Position numbers and translations under genes: made by a program | NCBI GenBank assembly: GCA_026128865.1 | Contig: JAHCJE010000009.1 | Span: 1 to 47,975, forward strand | Length of the DNA stretch: 47,975 nucleotides | DNA from: Phycisphaeraceae bacterium | GTDB lineage: Bacteria > Planctomycetota > Phycisphaerae > Phycisphaerales > UBA1924 | Direction of reading: 5' to 3' | The notes under the pieces: model-generated | What the model saw: the letters and a program-made list of their open reading frames with translations, nothing else | What the model was told of the DNA's origin: nothing | Databases searched by the model: none | Part shown: positions 36,424 through 41,835 of the stretch, piece by piece | How the letters are laid out: every line of letters starts with the position of its first letter | How positions within the stretch are numbered: position 1 is the stretch's first letter

Positions 36424-36651
36424 ATGAACGAGAACCTGATCCAACAACTGCTCGACAAGGACATCTTCATCTTTGTCGTTGGCGGGGCCGTGGGGATCGT
36501 CGCCATCATCTTCGGGACGGTGTCGTCCATGGTCCGCTCGACCGCCCGCGAGAAGTCCCGCCGCGAGATCGCGGCCTACATCGCCGAGGGATCGATGTCG
36601 CCCGAGCAGGGCGAGCGGCTGATGAAGGCGGGGGAGCCGAAGAAGGGCTGA
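36424..36651 (+). CDS. Small membrane protein 1 of array (AAYxAEGS motif)
   Basis: The 75-residue protein has one membrane helix (IFIFVVGGAVGIVAIIFGTV), a basic juxtamembrane linker (SMVRSTAREKS) and then RREIAAYIAEGSMSPEQGER with a short tail LMKAGEPKKG. The motif reads as two short helices around an Gly-Ser turn, somewhat like a SHOCT hairpin. It is the first of four tandem genes, which have 16-21 base gaps and GGGAGG-type ribosome sites. The N-in/C-out topology cannot be decided; the basic linker favours the tail in the cytoplasm. Function unknown. Confidence 0.75.
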   Translation: MNENLIQQLLDKDIFIFVVGGAVGIVAIIFGTVSSMVRSTAREKSRREIAAYIAEGSMSPEQGERLMKAGEPKKG

Positions 36652-36667
36652 TCCGGGGAGGTTCGGC

Positions 36668-36935
36668 ATGAACGAGCAACTGGCGCATTCGGTCCCGACG
36701 CTGGCGAGCGCCACCGATGAAATGGTGGCGATCGTGGCGGTCGGGGGGGGGGTTGCTGGTCGCGGTCGTGTGGATCGTGTTCGCGACCATTCACGGCCTG
36801 GTCAAGTCCAGGGAGCGTGAGCGCTCACGGCGCGAGATCGCCGCGTACGTGGCGGAAGGCTCGATGACGGCGGAGGAGGGCGAGCGGCTGATGAAGGCCG
36901 GGGCGGAGGCGGCCGCCGCTGAGGACGACGAGTGA
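36668..36935 (+). CDS. Small membrane protein 2 of array, frameshifted at a G10 run
   Basis: The gene starts at ATG 36668 with GGGGAGG six bases upstream and reads MNEQLAHSVPTLASATDEMV, AIVAV and then Gly codons. At 36743-36752 ten G stand in a row. Nine would keep the frame into LLVAVVWIVFATIHGLVKS, RERERSRREIAAYVAEGSMT and AEEGERLMKAGAEAAAAEDD, which clearly belong to the same family as genes 1, 3 and 4. With ten, translation from 36668 goes out of frame. A separate ATG at 36717 opens the second frame but lacks a ribosome site. The restored product would be about 88 residues. Phase variation, slippage or a sequence error are all possible. Confidence 0.65.
36743..36752 (+). repeat. G10 homopolymer in the second array gene
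   Basis: Ten consecutive G follow the GTC codon inside the membrane segment of the second array gene. A multiple of three is needed for an open frame. Such runs are prone to replication and transcription slippage. Confidence 0.9.
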
Positions 36936-36956
36936 CGCGGTCCGGGAGGCGTGGTC

Positions 36957-37202
36957 ATGGATATGCCGTTGACGCTGGCGATTTCGGGCGAGCAGATCGC
37001 GGCGATCGCGATCGTGGGGGCGATCGTGATGATCATCACCGGGATTCTCTCGTCCACGATCGGCGGCGTGTACAAAACGCGCGAGCGCGAGCGCACCAAG
37101 CGCGAGGTGGCCGCGTACGTGGCGGAGGGATCGATGACCCCGGTCGAGGGGGAGCGGATCATCAAGGCCGACATCCCGACCTGGGAGAAGGGCAAGAGTT
37201 GA
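36957..37202 (+). CDS. Small membrane protein 3 of array (AAYxAEGS motif)
   Basis: The 81-residue protein has one membrane helix (QIAAIAIVGAIVMIITGILS), a basic linker (VYKTRERERTK), and the shared motif REVAAYVAEGSMTPVEGERI followed by IKADIPTWEKGKS. ATG 36957 has GGGAGG seven bases upstream, so it was preferred over the GTG at 36951. It lies 21 bases after gene 2 and 16 before gene 4. Function unknown; the repeated layout suggests partner subunits of one membrane complex. Confidence 0.75.
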   Translation: MDMPLTLAISGEQIAAIAIVGAIVMIITGILSSTIGGVYKTRERERTKREVAAYVAEGSMTPVEGERIIKADIPTWEKGKS

Positions 37203-37218
37203 CTCGGGAGGACGTGCG

Positions 37219-37617
37219 ATGCCCGATCTGACAACGACGGACCTGTTCTATCTGCTGCTCGCGGTCGCCGGCGGCTTCGTGCTCGCGGTGTGGCTGGTGG
37301 TGTCGCACCTGACGGCGCGCGAGCAGGCGCGGGCGAAGGCGGAGCAGGCCAAGGCCCGCGAAGAGACCCGGCGCGAGATCGCGGCCTACGTGGCCGAGGG
37401 ATCGATCTCGGCCCAGGATGCCGCCCTGCTGCTCGCCGCGGGAACGGCGGAGGAGGAGTCCGGCCGCGCGCTGATCGCGGCGGTCCTGGCCGGGCGCGGG
37501 CTGACCCCGGAACAGGCCGAGCGTCTGGCAGGAGCCGGCGGCGGCGACATCGCCGACCTGCGCGCCGTGCTCAAGGAACTCGGCGAGCAGTGGGGCGTGA
37601 AGATCGCGGCGGATTGA
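37219..37617 (+). CDS. Small membrane protein 4 of array, with doubled motif
   Basis: The 132-residue protein has one membrane helix (LFYLLLAVAGGFVLAVWLVV) and a charged coiled linker (REQARAKAEQAKAREE). The motif TRREIAAYVAEGSISAQDAA is followed by a second, diverged copy RALIAAVLAGRGLTPEQAER and a third helix pair (ADLRAVLKELGEQWGVKI). The internal duplication makes it the longest member of the array. ATG 37219 has GGGAGG seven bases upstream. Function unknown. Confidence 0.75.
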   Translation: MPDLTTTDLFYLLLAVAGGFVLAVWLVVSHLTAREQARAKAEQAKAREETRREIAAYVAEGSISAQDAALLLAAGTAEEESGRALIAAVLAGRGLTPEQAERLAGAGGGDIADLRAVLKELGEQWGVKIAAD

Positions 37618-37645: not shown

Positions 37646-37867
37646 TCAGATGTCCGAGAGTCGAGCAACGCTCAGGACGCGCCGGATGCGCTCGGTAGCG
37701 GCGCGTCCATAGGCCATCCGGCGGAGGTATTCGAGCGCTTTCATGCGCTCCTCGGGCGATCTCGTCCGCCAGTATGTGCCGTCGTCATCCTGGTCCCGAA
37801 GCGAGACGGTGTCGAAGGCTGAGCGGTCGAGGCGAAAGGTTCGGTCCGGGTCATCGCGTGCCGACAC
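37646..37867 (-). CDS. Small hypothetical protein, antitoxin-like C-terminus
   Basis: From GTG 37867 the protein has 73 residues: VSARDDPDRTFRLDRSAFDT, then VSLRDQDDDGTYWRTRSPEE, RMKALEYLRRMAYGRAATER and IRRVLSVARLSDI. The YWRTRSPEERMKALEYLRR pattern recalls small proteins that accompany nucleotidyltransferase or PIN toxins in other bacteria. No toxin gene lies on either side here, so an orphan or an unrelated role is possible. It is convergent with the array and divergent from guaB. Confidence 0.5.
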   Translation of the reverse strand: MSARDDPDRTFRLDRSAFDTVSLRDQDDDGTYWRTRSPEERMKALEYLRRMAYGRAATERIRRVLSVARLSDI

Positions 37868-37962
37868 GCACGGAGTATAGACGGTTCGACGCGATCCGGG
37901 CCGCGCGCCGGGGCGATCCGGGCGCCGCTTGACTGTCCGCCCCCGACCCGCCACACTATCCC

Positions 37963-39621: not shown

Positions 39622-41238
39622 TCAGGCTTTCTTCTGGACATCGTGTGGCGGGTTCGTGTCGTCGTCAGTGACTCGGCCGAGTGCGCCGGGGAGTTCGATC
39701 CCTGCCTGCTTCGCCAGTTCGTGCACCGGTGGCAGCGAGCCGATCAAGCCCGAGAGGAAGTCGGCGGTCGCGCCGCGTGTGCCGCCGTTCTTCGGCTCCA
39801 CGCTCCGCCCCGAGTCCCAGACGGTGATCTTGTCGATGCGCAGGTTCTGCACGGCCTTGACCTGCTCGGCGACGAGTTCCGGGAGTTTTTCGATGAGGAG
39901 AAGCGTGGGCGCGACCTGCGGGTTCTGGGCGCAGGCCTGCACGAGTTGGCGGTAGCCGTCGGCCTTCGCTTCGAGCACCTTGCGGACGCCCTCGGCCTCC
40001 GCGCTGTAGCGGGCGAGGATCGCGTCGGCTTCGCCCCGGGCCTCGCGGCGCTGCTTCTCGGCCTCGGCCTCGGCGGCGATCTCGATGCGCTTCTTCTCGA
40101 TCTCCTGCGGCGCCAGTTCGTCCTTCGAGAGCCGCGCCAGTTCCTGCTCGCGCTCGGCGGCGAGGATGGCCTCGGCGGCCTTGGCGGCGGCGACCTCGGC
40201 GCGGCGGCGTGCCTCGGCGCGGATTTCGGCGAGTTTGGCGTTGCTCTCGGCGACCTGGGCGGACGACGTGTTCTCGCCCTCGACGGCGCGGGCCTCCGCG
40301 TCCGCGACGCGGATGCGCTGCTCCTGCTCCGCCTTCTTCTTCGCCGCAACCGTCTCCGCCTCGCGCTCCGCCGCCGCGATCTCCTGGTCGCGCTTGGCCT
40401 CGACCTCCCCCGTGACCGCCTGGGCCTCCAGGGCCGCAACCGCCACGCGCTGCTTCTGCTCGGCGTCCTTCTGGCCCTGCTCGGCGAGGGCGTGCTCCTG
40501 GGCGACGCGGACGTTGCGCTCGCGGACGGCGGCGGCCTCGCCGATCGCGCCGGTGCGCTCCTGCTCGGCGACCTCGACCTTGGCGCGGTTGATGGCCTCG
40601 GCGGCGGCGCGCTTGCCGATGGCCACGATGTAGCCCGACTCGTCGGTGATGTCGCGGATGTTCACGTTGATGAGTTCGAGGCCGATCTTGTTGATCTCCT
40701 GGCCCACGTTCTCGTTGATGTGGTTCATGAACTTCTCGCGGTCCTTGTTGATCTCCTCGATCGTCAGGGTCGCGATGACGAGGCGCAACTGGCCCAGGAT
40801 GATGTCCTGCGCCTGCTCGCGGATCGCCTGGGTGGGGAGCATGAGGAGTCGCTCGGCGGCGTTGTTCATGAGGACGGGGTCGGTGGAGATGCCGACGGTG
40901 AAGGTCGATGGCACGTCCACGCGGATGTTGTTGAGCGAGAGCGCGCCCTGGAGCGGGATGTCGATGACGATCGGTTCGAGCGAGAGGTAGGCGTAGTCCT
41001 GGATGAGGGGGATGACGAACGCGCCGCCGCCGTGCAGGCACTTGGCCGCCCGCTGCGCGCCGACTTTGCCGTAGATGACGAGGATGCGGTTGGACGGGCA
41101 GCGCTTGTACTGCTTGACGATCATCACCGTGACGAACAGCAGGATCATCAGCACCGCGCCGACGATGCCGAGCGCGAGCACGGGGCTGGAGCCGCTTCCC
41201 GAGTTCTGCGCGAGCGTGAGCATGATCGAATCGTTCAC
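39622..41238 (-). CDS. Flotillin-like SPFH membrane protein
   Basis: The 538-residue protein has one N-terminal membrane helix (LALGIVGAVLMILLFVTVMI), an SPFH domain (KRCPSNRILVIYGKVGAQRA, IDIPLQGALSLNNIRVDVPS) and a long coiled coil rich in EAEA/AKAEA-type repeats (residues about 210-440). A conserved C-terminus follows (LLIEKLPELVAEQVKAVQNL). Flotillins scaffold ordered membrane microdomains. Start GTG 41238 has GGGAG eight bases upstream. It is the second gene of an operon with the NfeD-like gene, 27 bases behind it, as in many bacteria. Confidence 0.92.
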   Translation of the reverse strand: MNDSIMLTLAQNSGSGSSPVLALGIVGAVLMILLFVTVMIVKQYKRCPSNRILVIYGKVGAQRAAKCLHGGGAFVIPLIQDYAYLSLEPIVIDIPLQGALSLNNIRVDVPSTFTVGISTDPVLMNNAAERLLMLPTQAIREQAQDIILGQLRLVIATLTIEEINKDREKFMNHINENVGQEINKIGLELINVNIRDITDESGYIVAIGKRAAAEAINRAKVEVAEQERTGAIGEAAAVRERNVRVAQEHALAEQGQKDAEQKQRVAVAALEAQAVTGEVEAKRDQEIAAAEREAETVAAKKKAEQEQRIRVADAEARAVEGENTSSAQVAESNAKLAEIRAEARRRAEVAAAKAAEAILAAEREQELARLSKDELAPQEIEKKRIEIAAEAEAEKQRREARGEADAILARYSAEAEGVRKVLEAKADGYRQLVQACAQNPQVAPTLLLIEKLPELVAEQVKAVQNLRIDKITVWDSGRSVEPKNGGTRGATADFLSGLIGSLPPVHELAKQAGIELPGALGRVTDDDTNPPHDVQKKA

Positions 41239-41265: not shown

Positions 41266-41835
41266 TCAGCCCGCGCGTGCGACCGTCAAGGTGTTGTCCT
41301 CGTTCACGCGCGTGACGCGGACGCGCGTCCCCGTCGGCAGTTCCTCGCCCTCCGTCGTCGCCGTGTAGGTGCGCTGGCGCTGGTCCAGCACCACGCGGAC
41401 CTGCCCGCGCCCCTCGCCGCGAGCGGGCACCGTCGCGTAGACGTCCCCCTCGTGCCCTATCGCGTTGCCGATGGCGACGTTGCCGCTCGCTTCGAGGTCG
41501 TACATGCCCTTGAGGAGGACGGCCAGCAGCCAGACCATCGCCGCGCCGCCGACCGCCGCCAGCAGGAGGCTCGTCGGCATGGACCATCCGAAGCCCTTGA
41601 GCGAGGCCAGCCCGGCCCAGCCGAAGCCCATGGCGAACGCCGTCGCGGACTGGATCGACAGCACCTCGAAGGCCTTGCCGGGGTCGCCGTGGGCGTCGGA
41701 GATGTCGACGTCGCCCAGGTCCGCGCCGCCGCCGCCGATGAGCATGAGTCCGAGCCTGAGCGCGAAGACCACGGTGCCCACAAGGGCCGGGATGGTGAAC
41801 CAGACTGCGCTGCCCGTAAACAGCAGGTCGATCAT
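41266..41835 (-). CDS. NfeD-like membrane protein
   Basis: The 189-residue protein has three or four membrane helices (AVWFTIPALVGTVVFALRLG, TSLLLAAVGGAAMVWLLAVL) and a C-terminal OB-fold (GHEGDVYATVPARGEGRGQV, RVRVTRVNEDNTLTVARAG). NfeD proteins pair with flotillins and are thought to regulate or stabilise their assembly. This member lacks the ClpP-like serine protease domain of long NfeD. It precedes the flotillin gene in the same operon. Confidence 0.85.
   Translation of the reverse strand: MIDLLFTGSAVWFTIPALVGTVVFALRLGLMLIGGGGADLGDVDISDAHGDPGKAFEVLSIQSATAFAMGFGWAGLASLKGFGWSMPTSLLLAAVGGAAMVWLLAVLLKGMYDLEASGNVAIGNAIGHEGDVYATVPARGEGRGQVRVVLDQRQRTYTATTEGEELPTGTRVRVTRVNEDNTLTVARAG

Follow-up and report, generated by a model that had tools for sequence, protein, structure and literature searches.

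A family of tandemly encoded small membrane proteins with a predicted SHOCT-like hairpin in Phycisphaerales

Four short genes follow one another on the same strand at positions 36424-37617 of the window, i.e., the whole stretch of 47,975 nucleotides of a Phycisphaeraceae bacterium that was analyzed. They raise the question whether they represent a protein family of their own, and what a row of such small membrane proteins could do for the cell. The initial annotation had described four tandem genes, each coding for a membrane helix and one common two-helix motif, and had noted a resemblance to SHOCT domains and to PspB. It turned out that such arrays are real, that they are widespread in one part of the Phycisphaerales, and that none of the protein families, structures and papers covered by the searches describes them.

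Organization of the array and anatomy of its proteins

The features of the array are summarized in Table 1. Each of the four genes encodes one hydrophobic helix and a hairpin with the consensus R-x-E-[IV]-A-A-Y-[IV]-A-E-G-S-[MI]-[ST]. The intergenic gaps are 16, 21, and 16 bases long, in agreement with the spacing of 16-21 bases reported initially. A GGGAGG-like ribosome binding site had been assigned to every gene; sites of this type are present upstream of genes 2-4, but gene 1 is preceded by a weaker AGGGG. For gene 3 an alternative GTG start exists at 36951. A scan for promoters and terminators was uninformative. Between the array and guaB lies a small open reading frame of 102 amino acids on the minus strand (37646-37954).

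Table 1. Positions of the array genes and their elements within the window
Feature	Position	Strand	Details
Gene 1, type A (first-position)	36424-36651	+	75 aa, MNENLIQQ...SRREIAAYIAEGSMSPEQGERLMKAGEPKKG; hairpin 36544-36633
Gene 2, type B, frameshifted as sequenced	36668-36935	+	hairpin 36813-36902
Run of ten Gs, site of the frame change in gene 2	36743-36752	+	
Gene 3, type B	36957-37202	+	81 aa; hairpin 37083-37169
Gene 4, type B, longer helical linker	37219-37617	+	132 aa; first hairpin 37354-37443
Gene 4, second hairpin (SHOCT-like, diverged)	37459-37536	+	residues about 81-106

While the array as such was verified, one of its four genes is not intact. The frame that starts at 36668 in gene 2 is broken at the run of ten Gs, and the remainder of the gene is found in another frame (36717-36935). 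Because the equivalent genes are intact in congeners (L033, 9374-9640, minus strand; L034, 8441-8710, minus strand; L103, 4244-4495), the break is probably a slip of sequencing or assembly or a recent lesion. This frameshift had been missed, as had the fixed order of the subtypes and the cysteine tails that are described below. The second, diverged copy of the motif in gene 4 had been recognized correctly, and second SHOCT-like hairpins also occur in type B proteins of several relatives (L105, L108, L113, L116, L126, L136, L137, and L144).

The distribution of charges was analyzed for 178 proteins from named loci. In all 178 of them the membrane helix is followed by more basic residues than precede it, the net charge is about -2.4 before and +2.7 after the helix, and the best stretch of 19 residues has a hydropathy of 1.67 or more. 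This distribution is in accordance with the positive-inside rule, and therefore the topology should be N-out/C-in with the hairpin in the cytoplasm. Small-xxx-small motifs, which are common in membrane helices, are present in 162 of the 178 membrane helices. AlphaFold models of single chains were inspected for two of the window proteins. For gene 1 (mean pLDDT 91.8) one helix of residues 12-55 is predicted, which comprises the membrane segment, the linker and the first hairpin helix, followed by a turn and a helix of residues 60-68; the bihelical arrangement is thus predicted with block-mean pLDDT values of 92-98 in the hairpin region. The model of gene 4 has a longer rod (residues 6-60), to which further helices are added at lower confidence.

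Relationship of the hairpin to SHOCT-like domains

Scans with Pfam and NCBIfam revealed no named family that covers the array proteins. With Pfam the window proteins had only sub-threshold matches, and the sole recurrent and sensible one was PF22746 (SHOCT-like), with 13.5-17.3 bits where listed, compared to a curated cut-off of 27 bits. The second hairpin of one relative scored exactly at this cut-off (27.0 bits). With NCBIfam, 66 members had no family match apart from one chance match. The hairpin profile alone retrieved one PF22746 protein (G041, E = 6e-4). In addition, the hairpin profile was aligned by HHalign to a profile of 11 PF22746 domains of other planctomycetes, which resulted in a probability of 96.4% and a score of 36.6 without gaps over 24 columns, while 100 column-shuffled control profiles scored at most 15.0. 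At the level of profile comparison the hairpin is thus a diverged SHOCT-like domain, and the resemblance to SHOCT that was suspected at first could thus be substantiated. As judged from sequence, the whole protein, composed of a bitopic anchor and a SHOCT-like hook, is an uncurated family.

The hairpin shares with the SHOCT-like domains (PF22746, SHOCT-like_DUF2089-C; also DUF1707, PF08044) the two short helices and the pattern R-x-x-I-...-EG-x-[IM]-[TS]-x-[ED]-x-[AG]-x-x-L-L. However, the first hairpins of the array proteins score below the Pfam cut-off and their conservation is far higher, and while PF22746 is found on DUF2089, Toastrack/YvlB or enzymes, the array hairpin is carried by a bitopic protein that is encoded in ordered tandem arrays. 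The SHOCT domain proper (PF09851; Eberhardt et al., 2013, PMC3581485) is also a short bihelical element near the C-terminus, with strongly conserved glycine and glutamate. In contrast, the Pfam scans did not match the array proteins to PF09851, and arrays of single-helix proteins are absent from the consulted portion of the founding paper.

Other relationships were less informative. A sequence search against solved structures yielded nothing meaningful, and a Foldseek search with the gene 4 model yielded no match at E <= 0.001. Matches to a T4SS pilin, DUF5316, Bestrophin and a holin were rejected as weak, scattered similarity of membrane helices. Small N-out bitopic proteins that are encoded by adjacent paralogous genes are well known from TatA/TatB, and the array proteins resemble such pairs in both respects. 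However, they are built from one continuous helix and a hook, without a hinge plus amphipathic helix, and no Tat family was matched in the Pfam and NCBIfam scans. A literature search found no paper that contains the motif string or that links Phycisphaerales to small membrane proteins.

Distribution, gene order and conservation

The four window copies of the hairpin alone have E-values of 4e-19 to 5e-14, and 43 of the 61 related genomes encode the hairpin, which excludes chance. In these 61 genomes it is confined to array-type genes and is present in no larger protein. A search with the gene 4 protein had matches in 42 of the 61 genomes, mostly in several adjoining copies. A profile was then built from 34 members and run on 301 Phycisphaerales genomes, 133 of which were matched. 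Among the matches listed, 106 of 118 genomes of the window's own family (f1), 20 genomes of f2, one of f3 and six of f4 are represented, but none of f5 and f6; conservation of the array outside of this genome, on which the initial proposal of an undescribed system depended, is therefore clear. No match was found in 361 genomes of planctomycetes outside of Phycisphaerales, which belong to a draw of 392 genomes across the phylum. A scan of 84,980 species genomes led to 178 relatives, 80 of which were kept, and these are records of Phycisphaerales or other planctomycetes, except for a few generic titles and one cyanobacterium title. The latter record (L160) contains a four-gene array, and because its contig is identical to one of a genome of family f1 (G034:C3), the title is probably wrong. 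Some f1 genomes do not contain the array, e.g., all three listed genomes of genus g312, and therefore it can be lost.

The 103 distinct arrays consist of one (22), two (38), three (31), or four genes (12), whereby some of the single-gene arrays may have been cut by contig ends. The order of the genes is fixed. A Q-G (or H-G) form of the second hairpin helix is present in the first gene of 72 of the 81 multi-gene arrays, but only in 14 of 136 later genes, and a value of 72 was reached in none of 100,000 draws of a random gene per array. A tree in which the first-gene label rests partly on the hairpin itself separates first from later genes. A second tree was based on the membrane helix and the linker only, excluding the hairpin, with labels that were assigned by gene position alone. 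This tree, which has few columns and many unresolved forks, also separates first and later genes, with nine label changes compared to 51.6 in shuffles. The first gene thus looks like an old, separately inherited paralog (type A) and the later genes look like a second kind (type B), and the separation in the second tree argues that both types are old and have been kept together.

The initial observation that conservation is concentrated in the soluble motif, while the membrane helices differ, was confirmed. The information content is 3.9 bits per column for the type A hairpin versus 2.0 bits for the membrane helix. For the same genome pairs, the pairwise identity is 82-85% for the type A hairpin but only 27-28% for the membrane helix, and the values of GuaB (74%) and Aat (48%) lie in between. 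Nearly every residue of this 24-residue helical hook is fixed, on all faces and in both subtypes, while only few of these hook positions are kept in ordinary SHOCT-like domains. At the invariant residues the synonymous codons vary freely, and thus selection acts on the protein. Selection at the level of DNA or RNA as well as recent gene conversion were dismissed, because the same codons are used in 53% of the cases within arrays and in 46% between genomes. The near-complete fixation of the hook exceeds what is needed for the folding of a hairpin, and fixed residues on all faces are what would be expected of a surface that a partner holds.

Possible function and genomic neighborhood

What, then, could the arrays do? 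Our favored explanation, which we advance tentatively and with somewhat less than even confidence, is that the array proteins form a hetero-oligomer, which serves as a scaffold in the membrane and presents an unchanging docking hairpin on the cytoplasmic side to one conserved partner. Each subunit has a short acidic N-terminus, predicted to lie outside of the cell, and a glycine/alanine-rich membrane helix that continues as a basic cytoplasmic helix, and it ends with the SHOCT-like hook, to which a terminal cysteine is often added. Type A, the product of the first gene, is near-invariant, while the type B subunits encoded by the later genes are variable. Membrane helices and linkers would most likely assemble side by side into a hetero-oligomer, in which one constant anchor is combined with one to three variable ones, and the identical hairpins, clustered just below the membrane, would dock one conserved partner in the cytoplasm or at the membrane surface. 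The oligomerization, the docking and the single shared partner are what we infer. SHOCT-like domains have been proposed to assemble proteins or to localize them at the membrane (PMC11237479, a broad survey). The one published experiment with a SHOCT domain gave no support for self-oligomerization (PMC3581485), and for this reason docking of another protein is favored over hairpin-hairpin assembly. We therefore assign assembly to the membrane helices together with the linkers, and docking to the hooks. It is doubtful that several subunits are strictly needed, because about a tenth of the family's genomes do not contain the array and single genes occur. More far-reaching, and rather doubtful, is the view that the arrays encode an order-restricted planctomycete complex that has not been described before, in which the constant and one to three variable subunits would form a ring or patch, with SHOCT-like hooks as a fixed crown and a common cysteine site, both facing the cytoplasm, and which would recruit its conserved partner as no known system does. 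The SHOCT-like building block is of a known kind; what is new, within the searches performed, is that constant and variable membrane-anchored hooks are encoded together in ordered arrays.

Three alternatives are weaker than the hetero-oligomer. A sensor or regulator of membrane stress similar to PspB/PspC or LiaF, in which the helices would sense the bilayer and the hairpins would bind and release a cytoplasmic regulator, seems unlikely. Like PspB, the array proteins begin with a membrane helix and continue into a charged, helical segment in the cytoplasm, and SHOCT-like domains occur beside PSP components in other phyla (PMC11237479). However, neither the window proteins nor the members of A2 and A3 had a match to PspB (PF06667) when scanned with Pfam, PspB is not known for tandem paralogs with a SHOCT-like hook, a PspA, PspC or PspF partner is missing, and PspA/IM30 is absent from 149 of 151 Phycisphaerales genomes, including that of the window (G000). 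In addition, no regulator, two-component or sigma factor gene recurs beside the arrays, and thus the lead toward PspB and the PSP system given by the initial annotation was not sustained. We regard as quite improbable that the proteins form a metal or redox complex of the membrane, in which C-terminal cysteines of neighboring subunits would build a shared site, either as metal ligands or as a disulfide. Such cysteine tails, with a cysteine among the final 10 residues and in most cases at one of the last two, are indeed found in 53% of the type A and 48% of the type B proteins, compared to 7% of 203 neighboring proteins. One or more tails are present in 59 of the 64 multi-gene arrays versus 53.8 expected at random (p = 0.013, a value that ignores shared descent). 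Nevertheless, the tail is not invariant: five of the 64 arrays have none, gene 1 of the window ends with KKG (36640-36651) while its congeners end with KKC, and conserved histidines or further cysteines are not present.

The genomic context bears on the third of these alternatives. There is no constant operon around the array and no partner gene that is constantly near. In one set of loci the aat gene (leucyl/phenylalanyl-tRNA-protein transferase, N-degron pathway) is located upstream in divergent orientation, namely in 51 of the 53 loci with aat in their flanks, and guaB or a glycogen-debranching gene follows behind the array. This arrangement would fit a membrane adaptor of protein turnover, but aat was not found in the flanks of the other 67 of the 120 loci (duplicates included), several arrays instead have a PTS EIIA gene on one side and queA/mur genes on the other, and synteny and a common promoter region are frequent reasons why divergent neighbors are conserved, so that we consider such a role very improbable. 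The least credible explanation is that the arrays, maintained by duplication, encode small toxins of the membrane or represent an accessory element that has no structural role. The small size, the tandem copies and the variation of copy number between genomes could be understood in this way, yet the soluble hairpin is nearly invariant despite free synonymous change, and it is widely conserved within the family. To our knowledge, the known arrays of type I toxins do not have a conserved soluble domain.

SHOCT-like hairpins are short and widespread, and their function is unsettled. In the arrays the hairpin is free of other domains, fixed at almost all of its residues across a bacterial family, and displayed on membrane anchors several times per array, with the genes always in the same order, which makes them a clean system for asking what a SHOCT-like hairpin binds. 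They also add an uncurated protein family to a group of planctomycetes without the usual PspA membrane-stress system.

It had been suggested to look for PspA, flotillin and sigma factors as recurring neighbors, and none of them recurs beside the arrays. In the window, genes for a flotillin-type SPFH protein (39622-41238) and an NfeD-like protein (41266-41835) are located on the minus strand behind guaB. A link to the array was rejected, as neither gene is near any of 120 other array loci. Flotillin does not track the arrays; it is missing in many genomes with arrays and present in some without. Within the window's family, roughly every second genome encodes the C-terminal domain of flotillin.
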